Source of the DNA: Streptomyces sp. Tue6028
GTDB taxonomy: Bacteria; Actinomycetota; Actinomycetes; Streptomycetales; Streptomycetaceae
Length of the DNA: 64,000 nucleotides
Assembly (NCBI RefSeq): GCF_002300165.1
Contig: NZ_MLCE01000019.1
Span: 248,001-312,000 of the forward strand
Direction: 5' to 3'
This document shows positions 21,626 to 61,129 of this stretch, in pieces. The notes below the pieces were generated by a model that saw only the letters and a list, made by a program, of their open reading frames with translations, had not been told where the DNA came from and made no database searches. The position numbers were made by a program, and so were the translations under genes. The first letter of the stretch is position 1. Every line of letters starts with the position of its first letter.

Positions 21626-21671
21626 TCTGGGGCAGTGCCGTTGACCATGGGTTTGACATGTTGAGCGCCAT

Positions 21672-21947
21672 GATTCGCGGAACCAGGGAGTGAAATCACC
21701 ATCACCGATATGACGTCGCCCACATCAAATCACGAACCACGATTCGCGGAACCAGGAAGTGAAATCACCATCACCGATATGACGTCGCCCGCACCAAATC
21801 ACGACCACGATTCGCGGAACCAGGAAGTGAAATCACCATCACCGATATGACGCCACCCACACCAAATCACGACCACGATTCGCGGAACCAGGAAGTGAAA
21901 TCACCATCACCGATATGACGCCACCCACACCAAATCACGAACCACGA
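21672..21947. repeat. four tandem 68-70-bp repeats (iteron-like) after int
   Basis: Units start at 21672, 21741, 21809 and 21877 with gattcgcggaaccagg and also contain gtgaaatcaccatcaccg and ccaaatcacga. They differ by only a few bases. An inverted partial copy, gttccgcgaatc, lies at about 22028. There are no variable spacers, so it is not CRISPR. Between int and the right border they could bind integrase arms, Rep or a partition protein. Confidence 0.85.
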
Positions 21948-22224
21948 TTGCCTACCAGCTCTACTGCCTGGCCGGCCGCCCGGCCAGCCGTCCGCCCACC
22001 CGACCACCCGGCCGCCCGGCCGCCCAGTTCCGCGAATCCTCGTTTCCGAGAATTCTCACTTCTGCCCTCTCGCAGTTTTCGAGAGATACCGGAGGCGGTG
22101 TGCGCCCAACACCTCTTCGGAAGCGTCACCCTTCGGACCGAAGCGTGCTTATTGCAGGCCCTAGCTGCGGGTTTGCACGGCTCACAGATAAGCCGCTAAA
22201 TTCTCCGTGCCGCCAAGGGAACAC
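21948..22224. other. non-coding end region of the element
   Basis: A ccggccgcccggcc-type GC run, the inverted partial copy of the 68-bp repeat (~22028-22039) and small inverted repeats such as ctctcgcagttttcgagag. No gene seen. Confidence 0.4.
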
Positions 22225-34422: not shown

Positions 34423-34630
34423 GGCTGGCGTGGTCACCGGCCGCCGCTGTCCGGTCGGCGTGGTCACCGGCCACCGCTCATCCGGTCGGCGGGGTCACCG
34501 GCCACCGCTCATCCAGTCGGCGGGGTCACCGGCCGCCGCTCATCCAGTCGGCGGGGTCACCGGCCACCGCTCATCCGGTCGGCGTGGTCACCGGCCGCCG
34601 TTGTGTCGGCAGGTCACCGGCCGCCGTTGT
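34423..34630. repeat. 31-bp minisatellite between convergent genes
   Basis: About six copies of tcggcggggtcaccggccac followed by cgctcatcca/g, with g/t and a/g variants, then shortened copies that run into the end of the minus-strand gene. The 31-bp period is not a multiple of three, so it is not a coding repeat. Confidence 0.8.
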
Positions 34631-37553: not shown

Positions 37554-37620
37554 GCCCACGACCTTTCGCATCTCGGCGAAACAGTAAACAAGGCCCCGGG
37601 CCGCTCCGAGACTCTGTCGC

Positions 37621-38841
37621 ATGCGCAGCTACCGAACCCTGTTCCGCGTACCGGAGTTCAGACCGTTCCTGCTCTCCTTCGCGGCTTTCGCCGCGGCCCA
37701 GACGGTCGGCGCGCTGGCCCTCGGCACGCTGGTCTTCCGGGCCACCGGCTCCCCGCTCCTGTCGGCGGTGAGCATGTTCGGCCCGCAGCTGGCGCAGCTC
37801 GTGGGGGGCACGTTCCTGCTCTCGGGTGCCGACCGCCTGCCCCCGCGCGCGATCCTGTCCGGCCTCGCCCTCGCCTTCGCGGCCGGCACGGCGGTGCTGG
37901 CGCTGCCCGGTCTCTCGGTCGGGGCGGTCTTCGCCGTCGTACTCCTGCAGGGCCTGGTCGCGTCGCTGGGCGGCGGTGTCCGCGGGGGGCTGCTGAACGA
38001 GATCCTGCCCAAGGACGGCTACGTCCTGGGCCGTTCGGTCTTCAACATGCTCTGGGGCCTGACGCAGGTGGCCGGTTTCGCGACGGGCGGCGCGCTGCTG
38101 GCGCTCCTGTCCCCGCGGACCTGTCTGCTCCTCGCGGCGGCGCTGTATCTGGCGTCGGCCGTCGTCACCCGCCTGGGCCTCACCGCCCGCCCGCCGCGCG
38201 CCTCCGGCCGCCCGTCCCTGTCGGCGACCTGGCGCACCAACGCCCTGCTGTGGTCCTCGCGCCCCCGCCGCCTCACGTACCTGGGCCTGTGGGTCCCCAA
38301 CGGCCTGGTGGTCGGCAGCGATTCGCTCTACGTCTCCTACGCGCCCGCGGCCGCCGGCACACTGTACGCGTGCGGGGCCCTGGGCATGTTCGTGGGCGAC
38401 ATGGCGGTGGGCCGTCTGTTTCCACCCGCGGTGCGCCCCCGGCTCGCGACCCCGCTGCGCCTGCTGCTCGCGGCCCCCTACCTCTTCTTCGTCCTGCGGC
38501 CGGGAGTGGCGCTGTCGGCCGTGGCCTGCACCATCGCCTCCGTCGGCTTCGCCGCGAGCCTGGTCCTGCAGGAACGCCTGATGTCCCTCATCCCCGACGA
38601 CCTCGCGGGCCAGGCCCTCGGCCTGCACGCCACCGGCATGGCCGCTCTCCAGGGCGCCGGCGCCGTCCTCGCGGGCACGCTGGCCCAACTGACCTCTCCG
38701 GCCGCGGCGATGACGCTGATGGCGGCCGGATCGGTCACCGTGACCCTGACCCTCGCGGCACTCGGCCGGCACGAGGAACGACAGCCGGCCGTCCCCGGTA
38801 CGCGTCCGGGCGTCCCGTCGGAGCAGGCCGCCACGGACTAG
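37621..38841 (+). CDS. MFS transporter
   Basis: A 406-residue 12-TM protein of the MFS fold, with paired repeats typical of the group found beside DUF5937/ArsR regulators (FGPQLAQLVGGTFLLSGADRLPP; GLHATGMAALQGAGAVLAGTL). No ribosome site is visible before the ATG, so translation may be leaderless or start elsewhere. Likely an efflux pump controlled by the divergent regulator. Confidence 0.8.
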   Translation: MRSYRTLFRVPEFRPFLLSFAAFAAAQTVGALALGTLVFRATGSPLLSAVSMFGPQLAQLVGGTFLLSGADRLPPRAILSGLALAFAAGTAVLALPGLSVGAVFAVVLLQGLVASLGGGVRGGLLNEILPKDGYVLGRSVFNMLWGLTQVAGFATGGALLALLSPRTCLLLAAALYLASAVVTRLGLTARPPRASGRPSLSATWRTNALLWSSRPRRLTYLGLWVPNGLVVGSDSLYVSYAPAAAGTLYACGALGMFVGDMAVGRLFPPAVRPRLATPLRLLLAAPYLFFVLRPGVALSAVACTIASVGFAASLVLQERLMSLIPDDLAGQALGLHATGMAALQGAGAVLAGTLAQLTSPAAAMTLMAAGSVTVTLTLAALGRHEERQPAVPGTRPGVPSEQAATD

Positions 38842-39206
38842 CCGGGGCCGTGGGCGGACCGGGGCGACCACGGGTCATGGCGCGACCGCTCCGCACGAGC
38901 GAGCATGGTGGCACCACATGGCACCGCGTGGCACTGAGTGGCGCCATGCGACGTCGCGCGGCACCGCATGACATCGGGTGGCACCATGTGGCGTCGCTCG
39001 ACACCACCCGGCGCCATTCGGTGCCACTCGGCGCCATCTGGCGCCATTCGATGCCCCCACGCGACACACGAGCCCGCCTGTCACCACAATGAATCAGGTC
39101 ACCTGCTCCACGTTTTCGCAGGTCAAAGGCGCCCCCTCACCACCCGCCCCGGGGAGATGACGCTATGGGCTTGCGCATGGCACCACTATGGCGCCATGAT
39201 GGCGTC
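38842..39206. other. intergenic region holding the phased repeat array
   Basis: No gene. It contains the 10-bp array (38911-39050), a short normal-looking stretch, and three more ggcrcc/ggcgtc boxes at 39179, 39190 and 39201 (11-bp steps) right up to the start codon of the RHH gene. Confidence 0.7.
38911..39050. repeat. array of fourteen 10-bp helically phased boxes
   Basis: Fourteen consecutive decamers, all of the form RYRYYR-NN-YG (most often gcaccannTG or gcgccattcg), without a single insertion or deletion. Position 10 is G in all fourteen units and position 2 is C in thirteen. Each box repeats on the same helix face, the geometry expected for cooperative binding of a protein such as the ribbon-helix-helix protein encoded next. 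Confidence 0.8.
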
Positions 39207-39725
39207 ATGGACCTCACCCCGTATGTCGACACCCTCCGCCGCGAACTCGCGGTGGCCGCCGAAGCCGGCGGGGACGAAGCCCGCGAGCTGGCCGAGCGGC
39301 TCACCGCTCCCCTGGAGTCGGCGACCCGGCTGACCCTGCTCAATGTGCTCTCCGCCGCGATGGACGAGATCACCCGCGAGCTCGCCCCCGGCTCGGTCGA
39401 CGTACGGCTGCGCGGGCTGGACCCCGACTTCGTGGTGACACCGCCGCCCACCGACGGTCCCGCACCCGCGGAGCCCGTCGCACCCTTCGAACCGCTCAGG
39501 ACCCCGGCCCCCGCCGAGGGCGACGAGGGCGCCACCGCCCGCGTCAATCTGCGTCTGCCGGCCCACCTCAAGGCACGCGCCGAGGAGGCCGCGAGCCGGG
39601 AGGGCCTGTCGGTCAACGCCTGGCTGGTGCGGGCCGTGTCGGCCGCGGTCGACAGCGGCGCCCGGCCGCGTACGACGGAGAAGACCCAGACCGTCGGCCA
39701 GAGCTTCACGGGCTGGGTGCGCTAG
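39207..39725 (+). CDS. ribbon-helix-helix (HicB/CopG-like) regulator
   Basis: A 172-residue protein: an N-terminal helical domain (~1-70; TPYVDTLRRELAVAAEAGGDEA), a Pro/Ala linker with PPPTDGPAP, and a C-terminal RHH motif (~110-150; ARVNLRLPAHLKARAEEAASREGLSVNAWLVRAV). The ATG at 39207 matches the family start, but an ATG at 39165 has the better ribosome site (GGGGAG). It probably represses its own operon by binding the phased boxes upstream. The same operon-like order (RHH, DUF4097, ABC) follows. Confidence 0.82.
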   Translation: MDLTPYVDTLRRELAVAAEAGGDEARELAERLTAPLESATRLTLLNVLSAAMDEITRELAPGSVDVRLRGLDPDFVVTPPPTDGPAPAEPVAPFEPLRTPAPAEGDEGATARVNLRLPAHLKARAEEAASREGLSVNAWLVRAVSAAVDSGARPRTTEKTQTVGQSFTGWVR

Positions 39726-39807
39726 CCGCGCCGCCGCCCGCACCACCTCACCCACACCACGTCCCACCAGCGGGGACGACCTGAAGACCCAAGAGGACGG
39801 GACAGCC

Positions 39808-40650
39808 ATGCCTTCTTTCGACACCCCCGAAGCGATTTCCGCCACGGCGCACGTGGAGGCCGGTTCCATCCAGTTCACCGCGGGCGACCGCCTCGACACG
39901 GTCGTCGAGGTGCGGCCCCGCGACCCGAAGAAGGACCTGGACGTACGGGCGGCCGACCAGACCGAGGTCACGTACGTGAGCGGCGCTCTGACCGTCAGGA
40001 CGCCCAAGTCCAACCTGTTCGGCCGTACCGGCACCGTCGACGTCACGGTCGAACTGCCCACGGGCTCGCGCATCGACATGACCGGCGCCTGGGCCCAGGT
40101 GTTCGGCGAGGGCCGGCTCGGCGAGGTCCGTGTGAAGACCTCGTCCGGCGACGTCCGACTCGACACCACCGGCCCGCTGCACCTGAAGGCGTCGCACGGA
40201 TCGATCACCGTGGACCGCGTCGAGGGCATGGCCGAGATCACCACCAGCTCCGGCAGCCTGCGCGTCGGCCTCGTCGACGGACCCGCCGTCCTGAAGAACT
40301 CGCACGGCACCACGACCGTCGGCGCCGCGACCGGCGAGCTGCGGGTGAGCGGCGCCAACGGCGACATCGAGATCCGGCGCGCCGAGAACTCGGTCACCGC
40401 CACCACCGCGCACGGCACCCTGCGCGTGGGCGAAGTGGCGCGTGGCACAGTCCAGTTGGAGACCAACTACGGGGCCATCGAGGTCGGTGTCCGCGAGGGC
40501 ACGGCCGCCTGGCTCGACGTCAGCTCGGGCTCCGGCCAGGTCCGCAACACGCTCACCGCGTCCGAGACCCCGGAGCGGACCGAGGACACCGTCGAGGTCC
40601 GCGCCCGCACCCGGCACGGCAACATCGACGTCCGCCGCGCCAAGGCCTGA
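39808..40650 (+). CDS. DUF4097 beta-helix protein
   Basis: A 280-residue soluble protein of short beta-strand repeats (VKTSSGDVRLDTTGPLHLKA, ITTSSGSLRVGLVDGPAVLKN, VSGANGDIEIRRAENSVTA), the DUF4097 adhesin-like left-handed beta solenoid. No signal peptide, so it is probably cytoplasmic. AGAGGACGGGA upstream of the ATG. It lies between the RHH regulator and the ABC transporter, a frequent arrangement in Streptomyces. Confidence 0.82.
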   Translation: MPSFDTPEAISATAHVEAGSIQFTAGDRLDTVVEVRPRDPKKDLDVRAADQTEVTYVSGALTVRTPKSNLFGRTGTVDVTVELPTGSRIDMTGAWAQVFGEGRLGEVRVKTSSGDVRLDTTGPLHLKASHGSITVDRVEGMAEITTSSGSLRVGLVDGPAVLKNSHGTTTVGAATGELRVSGANGDIEIRRAENSVTATTAHGTLRVGEVARGTVQLETNYGAIEVGVREGTAAWLDVSSGSGQVRNTLTASETPERTEDTVEVRARTRHGNIDVRRAKA

Positions 40651-40659
40651 GCACCGCCT

Positions 40660-40740
40660 CGTCGACCGGCCCCGTCCTCCCCTGAACGCCACACCGTCGA
40701 CCGGCCCCGTCCTCCCCTGAGCGCCACACCGTCGACCGAC
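40660..40740. repeat. 35-bp tandem repeat after the DUF4097 stop
   Basis: cgtcgaccggccccgtcctc followed by ccctgarcgccacac, starting at 40660, 40695 and 40730 (third copy partial). It is non-coding and sits in the leader of the ABC genes. Confidence 0.7.
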
Positions 40741-40780
40741 CCCACTCTCCGCCCACTTCAGCCTTCGAACGGAGGGCCCC

Positions 40781-41782
40781 ATGCCTTCATCTGTCATGCC
40801 CACGCCCAGGCAGGGCGACGGTCCGCAGTCGCCCGCCGCCCTCTCCGCCATCGGTCTGCGCAAGTCGTACGGCGACAAGACCGTCCTCGACGGCATCGAT
40901 CTGCGCGTCCCCGCCGGGTCCGTGTTCGCGCTGCTCGGGCCGAACGGTGCCGGCAAGACCACCACCGTGCAGATCCTGTCCACGCTCATCACCGCCGACA
41001 GCGGCCAGGCCCAGGTCGCCGGACACGACGTCGCCACGTCACCCGACGGAGTACGCGCCGCGATCGGTGTCACCGGCCAGTTCTCCGCCGTCGACGGGCT
41101 GATCACCGGCGAGGAGAACATGCTCCTCATGGCCGACCTGCACCACCTGTCCAAGCGGGAGGGACGACGGGTCACCGCCGAACTGCTGGAGCTCTTCGAC
41201 CTCACCGACGCGGCGAAGAAGCCCGCCTCCACCTACTCCGGCGGCATGAAGCGCCGCCTCGACATCGCCATGACCCTGGTCGGCAGCCCGCGGATCATCT
41301 TCCTCGACGAGCCCACCACCGGCCTCGACCCCCGCTCACGCCACAACATGTGGCAGATCATCCGCGAACTGGTCACCGACGGCGTCACCGTCTTCCTCAC
41401 CACCCAGTACCTGGACGAGGCCGACGAACTCGCCGACGGCATCGCCGTGCTCAACGACGGAAAGATCGTCGCCCACGGAACCGCCGAGGAACTGAAACGC
41501 CTGATCCCCGGCGGTCATGTCCGCCTCCGCTTCACCGATCCGGCCGCGTACCGGAGCGCCGCGACCGCGCTGCGCGAGATCACCGGGGACGACGAGGCAC
41601 TGACGCTCCAGATCCCCAGCGACGGCACCCAGCGGGCGCTGCGCGCCCTGCTCGACCGGCTGGACGCGGCGGGTGTCGAGGCCGACGAGCTGACCGTGCA
41701 CACCCCCGACCTCGACGACGTCTTCTTCGCCCTGACCGGCGGCACCGGCCGGACCGACAAGAAAGGCATGGCTGTCCGATGA
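40781..41782 (+). CDS. ABC transporter ATPase, DrrA type
   Basis: A 333-residue ATPase of the daunorubicin-resistance (DrrA) group. Walker A GPNGAGKTT (~50), signature YSGGMKRRLDIA (~150), Walker B IIFLDEPTTGLD (~170), switch His replaced by Gln in TTQYLDEADELAD as is usual for DrrA. ACGGAGGG upstream of the ATG. The stop overlaps the permease start (ATGA). Confidence 0.92.
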   Translation: MPSSVMPTPRQGDGPQSPAALSAIGLRKSYGDKTVLDGIDLRVPAGSVFALLGPNGAGKTTTVQILSTLITADSGQAQVAGHDVATSPDGVRAAIGVTGQFSAVDGLITGEENMLLMADLHHLSKREGRRVTAELLELFDLTDAAKKPASTYSGGMKRRLDIAMTLVGSPRIIFLDEPTTGLDPRSRHNMWQIIRELVTDGVTVFLTTQYLDEADELADGIAVLNDGKIVAHGTAEELKRLIPGGHVRLRFTDPAAYRSAATALREITGDDEALTLQIPSDGTQRALRALLDRLDAAGVEADELTVHTPDLDDVFFALTGGTGRTDKKGMAVR

Positions 41783-42570
41783 GCTCCCTGTCCCTCGCCG
41801 TGCGCGACTCGACCACGATGCTGCGCCGCAATCTGCTGCACGTACGGCGCTACCCGTCCCTGACCCTGAACCTGCTGCTCACGCCGGTCATGCTGCTGTT
41901 GCTCTTCGTCTATGTCTTCGGCGACGTGATGAGCGCGGGCATCGGCAGCGGCGGTGCCGACCGCTCCGAGTACATCGCCTACCTCGTACCCGGCGTCCTG
42001 CTGATGACCGTCGGCGGCACCACGGTCGGCAGCGCGGTGTCCGTCTCCATGGACATGTCCGAGGGCATCATCGCCCGCTTCCGCACGATGGCGATCCACC
42101 GCGGCTCCGTGCTCGTCGGGCATGTCGTCGGCAGTGTGCTGCAGTGCGTGATGAGCGTGCTCCTCGTCGGGGCCGTCGCGGTGGCCATGGGGTTCCGGGC
42201 CACGGACGCCACGGCTCTGGAGTGGATCGCGGCGTTCGGGCTGCTCGTACTGTTCTCCCTGGCGCTCACCTGGATCGCGGTCGGGATGGGCATGGTCAGC
42301 CCGAACGCCGAGGCGGCCAGCAACAACGCGCTGCCGCTGATCTTCCTCCCGCTCATCTCCAGCGCCTTCGTCCCGGTCGACGCGATGCCGGGCTGGTTCC
42401 AGCCGATCGCCGAGTACCAGCCCTTCACCCCCGCCATCGAGACCCTGCGCGGGCTGCTGCTCGGCACCGGGATCGGGCACAACGGATGGCTCGCGGCCGG
42501 CTGGTGCGTGGCTCTGTGCGCACTCGGCTACTTCTGGTCGAAGGCGGTCTTCGACCGCGATCCGAAGTAG
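41779..42570 (+). CDS. ABC-2 type permease, DrrB type
   Basis: A 263-residue membrane protein with six hydrophobic segments and the ABC2 signature near its end (AEAASNNALPLIFLPLISSAFVPVD then PGWFQPIAEYQPFTP). It is coupled by ATGA to the ATPase gene. Together they probably export an amphipathic toxin or lipid-like compound. Confidence 0.9.
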   Translation: MSSLSLAVRDSTTMLRRNLLHVRRYPSLTLNLLLTPVMLLLLFVYVFGDVMSAGIGSGGADRSEYIAYLVPGVLLMTVGGTTVGSAVSVSMDMSEGIIARFRTMAIHRGSVLVGHVVGSVLQCVMSVLLVGAVAVAMGFRATDATALEWIAAFGLLVLFSLALTWIAVGMGMVSPNAEAASNNALPLIFLPLISSAFVPVDAMPGWFQPIAEYQPFTPAIETLRGLLLGTGIGHNGWLAAGWCVALCALGYFWSKAVFDRDPK

Positions 42571-60979: not shown

Positions 60980-61129
60980 GGGAGCTCGGTCAGTCCGCAC
61001 CACCGGGCACCGCCCGGCACGACAGGGCACCGCCCGGCACAACCACAACTGAATCGCTACGGATCGACGTCGTCGCACATCGGCCCCATGGCCCCGGCCA
61101 CGAAGGAGGTACGAAGGTACGGAATCAGT

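Follow-up and report, generated by a model that had tools for sequence, protein, structure and literature searches.

A long array of palindromic boxes at 10-bp steps and a three-box core promoter as likely operators of a self-regulating ribbon-helix-helix protein in Streptomyces

In Streptomyces sp. Tue6028, a ribbon-helix-helix (RHH) protein encoded next to an unusually long array of short palindromic boxes is likely to be a negative autoregulator of its own RHH-DUF4097-ABC operon, acting by a three-box blockade of the promoter together with cooperative loading on the array. This reading comes from sequence comparison, centered on a 64-kb stretch of the genome (hereafter the window) and extended to orthologous loci and to other genomes of the genus. 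The protein would very probably represent a self-regulating repressor not described before, with an operator of unusual length, and would also control efflux and P450 genes in relatives; in the open-access literature, no description of regulation by the RHH protein, of the box motif, or of the DUF4097 cassette was found.

The array occupies positions 38909 to 39046, where 14 palindromic 8-bp boxes with the consensus YGRYRYCR (e.g., TGGCGCCA; no strand assigned) follow each other at exact 10-bp steps and with zero indels, the last one starting at 39039. The in-phase, indel-free 10-bp boxes reported by the first-pass annotation were thereby confirmed, the maximum box run in 200 Markov shuffles of the 64-kb window being 2. 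The third box (TGGCACTG, at 38929) deviates from the strict core at one position. At most 11 strict boxes follow one another at exact 10-bp steps, and a degenerate fifteenth box (CGATGCCC, 39049 to 39056, 7/8 match, no strand assigned) keeps the 10-bp register. Self-match of the array reached 0.56-0.61 at lags of 10, 20, 30, and 40 bp, vs. 0.13-0.41 at the remaining lags. On one side, the array is flanked by an MFS gene (37621 to 38841), whose ORF overlaps a divergent opposite-strand ORF at the start codons (37620 to 37622, according to ORF calls), and on the other side by the gene of the small RHH protein. An RNA element was rejected, with no Rfam match in 38800 to 39900, as was a coding origin of the array; the ORFs across it are spurious, and boxes are kept where neighboring genes differ.

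Genome-wide box statistics were obtained by pattern searches, and the scan for similar arrays that had been suggested earlier found no second strict four-box run in the rest of the 7.96-Mb genome. Elsewhere in the 64-kb window there was no comparable run, the runner-up being five loose boxes at 60995; these (60995 to 61044, at 10-bp steps) lie within a GC-rich GCACCGCCCG repeat and resemble a simple repeat. Other repeats in the window comprise a 31-bp tandem repeat of about 6-7 copies (GGCGGGGTCACCGGCCACCGCTCATCCGGTC, 34427 to 34630), a 68-bp repeat with four copies that are 95% alike (21668 to 21949), and a 12-bp repeat of about 40 copies followed by a 36-bp repeat (528 to 1174), possibly a repetitive coding region.

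The RHH regulator gene (39207 to 39725, plus strand, 172 aa) is present in a single copy in this genome. Its start is likely the ATG at 39207 and not the ATG at 39165 chosen by the ORF finder, because orthologues align from 39207. The protein is organized as a conserved helical N-terminal domain, a variable linker, an RHH domain at about residues 110-150, and a conserved GWVR tail. That the gene downstream of the array encodes an RHH protein, as initially proposed, was corroborated by profiles that recognize the beta-alpha-alpha domain of this family: Pfam HicB was just above cut-off at residues 113-143, RHH_5 and NikA-like profiles gave weak matches, and the TacA1, Arc, and RHH_1 profiles matched RHH orthologues. 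The AlphaFold model was poor (mean pLDDT 53.7), and in this low-confidence model a strand (residues 111-118) and two helices (119-131 and 136-149) follow the strand-helix-helix order; a Foldseek search with it returned nothing significant, with E values above 2 for Arc and F-plasmid relaxosome chains. R112, N114, and R116, on the strand presumed to read the DNA, are invariant or nearly so among orthologues, with G replacing N114 in one relative (L302). TAL-effector matches from a PDB sequence search, all in the helical N-terminal domain and with no stretch passing alone, were discarded as composition artefacts, and a Trypco2 match to residues 1-26 of two orthologues was below cut-off.

Downstream on the plus strand, the presumed operon continues with its second gene, encoding a DUF4097 (toastrack) protein (39808 to 40650), followed by a DrrA-type ABC transporter ATPase (40781 to 41782, TIGR01188 above cut-off) and a DrrB-like ABC-2 type permease (41833 to 42570, identified by profiles). 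The DUF4097 gene, already noticed at this locus, lies 3' of the RHH gene in 137/137 orthologous loci. About three tandem 35-bp repeats are found between the DUF4097 and ABC ATPase genes (40646 to 40743). In relatives, the RHH protein is auto-annotated as "toxin-antitoxin system HicB family antitoxin," which together with the HicB score could point to a type II HicAB toxin-antitoxin locus; such a locus is extremely improbable here, as no HicA-like toxin gene occurs among the neighbors (MFS, DUF4097, ABC) and the HicB match is limited to 31 residues in the C-terminal domain. There is no support for the "HicB antitoxin" label.

At the start of the RHH gene, three boxes stand at 11-bp steps: box 1 (TGGCACCA, -29, 39178 to 39185), box 2 (TGGCGCCA, -18, 39189 to 39196), and box 3 (TGGCGTCA, -7, 39200 to 39207), palindromes without assigned strand that are strict in 105, 126, and 104 of the 137 orthologues, respectively. 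The final base of box 3 is the A of the start codon ATG 39207. The spacing and the contact with the ATG agree with what the first-pass annotation had described, but its placement of these boxes directly after the array does not, since a 131-bp gap separates them. In the same way, boxes do cover the promoter of the DUF4097-ABC operon in the case of these three, but not in that of the long array, which ends about 130 bp upstream.

An ungapped profile of the 137 orthologous loci, with the ATG at position 0, delineated a putative -35 element (TTGCGC, -36 to -31, 39171 to 39176, plus strand), conserved as T 86%, T 94%, G 84%, and C 81% at -36 to -33, and a putative -10 element (CATGAT, -12 to -7, 39195 to 39200, plus strand), conserved as A 97% at -11, A 86% at -8, and T 97% at -7. 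Given the position of the -10 element and its 18-bp spacing from the -35 element, transcription probably starts at or beside ATG 39207, giving a leaderless message. The three promoter boxes fill the stretch from the -35 element to the start codon, box 2 overlapping the -10 element, as would be expected of operators placed on the core promoter of their own gene. A scan for consensus sigma-70 promoters and terminators found nothing, which is unsurprising for a degenerate promoter in GC-rich DNA. Within the genome of the window itself, no promoter other than that of the RHH gene fits the three-box pattern, even at 3 mismatches. As for the 131-bp gap, it contains the putative -35 element and a single 7/8 box (TGTCACCA, -128, 39079 to 39086, no strand assigned), at a place where orthologues also have a box (across 124 loci, 63 strict ones between -127 and -129). 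Moreover, a GCAGGTCA element at -89 (39118 to 39125, plus strand) keeps a fixed position in many orthologues; its motif, GCAGSTCA, was detected in 61/137 upstream regions, 52 times at -89 or -88, the expectation being about 0.004 per region.

A lack of periodic boxes in orthologous promoters had been named at the outset as one result that would refute the first interpretation; such boxes are present. In the 137 loci compared, which have RHH identities of 52-100% and include another family of the same order, the three 11-bp boxes recur at -29, -18, and -7 down to 52% identity, although counts of this kind take in related genomes and are not independent. Further upstream, strict box pairs in these loci numbered 338, 250, 166, and 101 at distances of 10, 20, 30, and 40 bp, against 5 and 26 at 9 and 11 bp. 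The register of the upstream boxes relative to the ATG is held to a base or two, and box counts peak near -128, -157, -167, -177, -187, -197, -207, and -217, where about one per position is expected. An extra box at -51, two 11-bp steps 5' of -29, was strict in 27 and matched at >=7/8 in 59 of 124 loci.

Array length is far more variable. Most orthologues have runs of 1-8 boxes, with a full span from 1 to 15, and the window array is the longest of the 137 loci (15 when 7/8 boxes are counted), a further genome (G215) having 13; among 79 named loci, which partly overlap the 137, the longest run is 10. The array is unusually long, as had been claimed from the window alone. Judging from this variation from 1 to 15 boxes, a long array is dispensable for basic function. 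In this context, it is possible, but unlikely, that the three promoter boxes are the only functional operators and that the upstream array is a neutral or nearly neutral by-product of replication slippage. Its length is indeed lineage-specific, relatives with 91-93% identical RHH proteins having 1-7 boxes, and 20/137 loci lack any run of two or more. Nevertheless, 118/120 core positions over the 15 boxes agree with YGRYRYCR, whereas the two spacer bases are variable, a pattern that differs from fresh slippage; similarity between copies is no higher at 20 or 40 bp than at 10 bp; and both the 10-bp spacing and the register are preserved across orthologues.

The boxes are also associated with the RHH gene at the level of the genus. 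Among 393 genomes, an RHH match was found in 262 and a strong one in 253. Allowing up to 2 mismatches, the three-box promoter was identified in 203/253 RHH-positive and in 3/140 RHH-negative genomes (Fisher p 2e-58, a value that overstates independence, as the genomes share ancestry); the 50 RHH-positive genomes lacking the motif at 2 mismatches are to be read against a strict pattern. Two of the RHH-negative exceptions are G338, with an RHH remnant (L297), and G259, a plain repeat. Four-box runs at 10-bp steps were present in 103/393 genomes, the reversed control pattern in 5. Out of 30 four-box loci that were fetched, 16 precede an RHH orthologue and 4 a DUF4097-ABC or ABC gene in the absence of an RHH gene, the other 10 lying elsewhere, with no cassette relative and several of them in simple repeats.

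Loss of the RHH gene from an operon does not necessarily remove the boxes. In G354 (L047) and G234 (L058) one operon lacks the gene, and only a decayed remnant of it is left in G235 (L052); the array and the three-box promoter are nonetheless still found before DUF4097. For both G354 and G235, an RHH gene is listed at a different place, and the strong RHH match of G234 lies outside this locus. In G081 (L060), where there is no RHH match, the operon is truncated and has no promoter boxes left. Persistence of arrays beside RHH-less operons is a further argument against a neutral array. The three-box promoter also occurs before DrrA-like ABC genes (L287, L288), an MMPL exporter (L192), unknown proteins, and P450 genes of three other streptomycetes (L290, L293, L305); in L305, the possible P450 start codon coincides exactly with the leaderless ATG, i.e., with the RHH start position. 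Because the boxes are found at RHH-less operons and at other genes, they are separable from the RHH coding unit, and the RHH protein can presumably act in trans in relatives.

These observations also bear on which protein binds the boxes. We infer that it is the RHH protein, and in principle another transcription factor could do so, the RHH gene being merely its most common target; the second conserved element at -89, GCAGSTCA, suggests further factors at the RHH promoter. Such a factor as the box binder is very unlikely, as genomes that lack the RHH gene almost never have the three-box promoter, and among the three exceptions one has an RHH remnant and another is a plain repeat.

Several known RHH systems resemble this arrangement. 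MetJ dimers bind cooperatively to tandem 8-bp palindromes over a promoter, and its met boxes, 2-5 in number, adjoin each other at 8-bp steps. The likeness lies in the tandem 8-bp palindromes over a promoter and in the RHH protein; in contrast, the boxes described here stand at 10- or 11-bp steps and number up to 14, and the link of MetJ to SAM has no known counterpart. Omega sites are heptads, a weaker parallel than ParR/parC with its 10- or 11-bp repeats. Omega (pSM19035) and ParG (TP228) are RHH proteins of the type Ib centromere-binding class, which repress their operons and recognize short sites in tandem (PMC5016525), whereas here 8-bp palindromes recur every 10 or 11 bp and no ParA is seen nearby. 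ParR of the type II partition systems of R1 and pB171 is an RHH protein whose binding sites are 10- or 11-bp repeats close to the promoter of its own operon; it forms helical arrays with one dimer per repeat and represses that promoter (PMC9426499, PMC5016525). The operon promoter in the window likewise has tandem repeats of 10 or 11 bp, and by analogy the mode of action would resemble ParR/parC autoregulation. Unlike in ParR/parC, the boxes are palindromes, the downstream genes encode DUF4097 and an ABC exporter, and the system is widespread in chromosomes; no ParM/ParA motor is encoded by the adjacent genes (MFS, DUF4097, ABC ATPase, permease).

The analogy could be carried further, to a ParR-like superhelical filament that nucleates on the array, spreads to the promoter, and silences the operon as a higher-order complex; a filament or silencing complex had been suggested by the first-pass annotation. 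In length, the 10- and 11-bp repeats match those bound by ParR of pB171 and R1 (PMC9426499, PMC5016525), and in some orthologues boxes at -51, -106/-107, and -127/-128 lie between array and promoter. We regard this as quite unlikely: a single weak box on that lattice is present in the gap of the window, and boxes are few in most orthologues. In its boldest form, equally doubtful, a chromosomal ParR-like filament would be seeded on the 10-bp array and extended to the 11-bp promoter array, and would repress drug-efflux and secondary-metabolite genes throughout the streptomycetes in a switch-like manner; if true, a centromere-type nucleoprotein machine would be serving transcription control.

In the favored reading, autoregulation by promoter blockade and cooperative loading, one RHH dimer would bind each 8-bp palindrome. 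Three dimers on the 11-bp boxes would cover the core promoter from the edge of the -35 element to the start codon, and RNA polymerase would be blocked. The upstream 10-bp array may serve as a high-capacity platform for cooperative loading, on which contacts between neighboring dimers would raise the local RHH concentration and make repression stronger or sharper, and array and promoter might be brought together. With 10 bp per box, successive dimers would be slightly rotated relative to the helix, which would suit a gently winding chain. In relatives, the protein may act in trans on ABC, DUF4097, P450, and MMPL promoters. As to what relieves repression, a toxic metabolite or envelope stress would be a fair guess, because the operon encodes a DrrAB-like exporter.

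A comparable gene order has been described in the lunaemycin cluster of Streptomyces, where the 177-aa Lun1, listed as TmcL-like and of unknown function, is followed by a DUF4097 protein (Lun2) and a P450 (PMC9866976). By size and context only, Lun1/Lun2 are likely homologous to RHH-DUF4097 and part of the same cassette, which suggests that the cassette occurs in antibiotic clusters.

In brief, automatic annotation labels this widespread streptomycete protein an antitoxin; it appears to repress an exporter cassette of the DUF4097-DrrAB type through a defined operator code. With such a code, the members of its regulon could be predicted in many genomes from the sequence itself, among them P450 and exporter genes similar to components of antibiotic clusters. 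The natural array lengths, from 1 to 15 boxes, would offer a ready series for relating operator number to the cooperativity of an RHH repressor.
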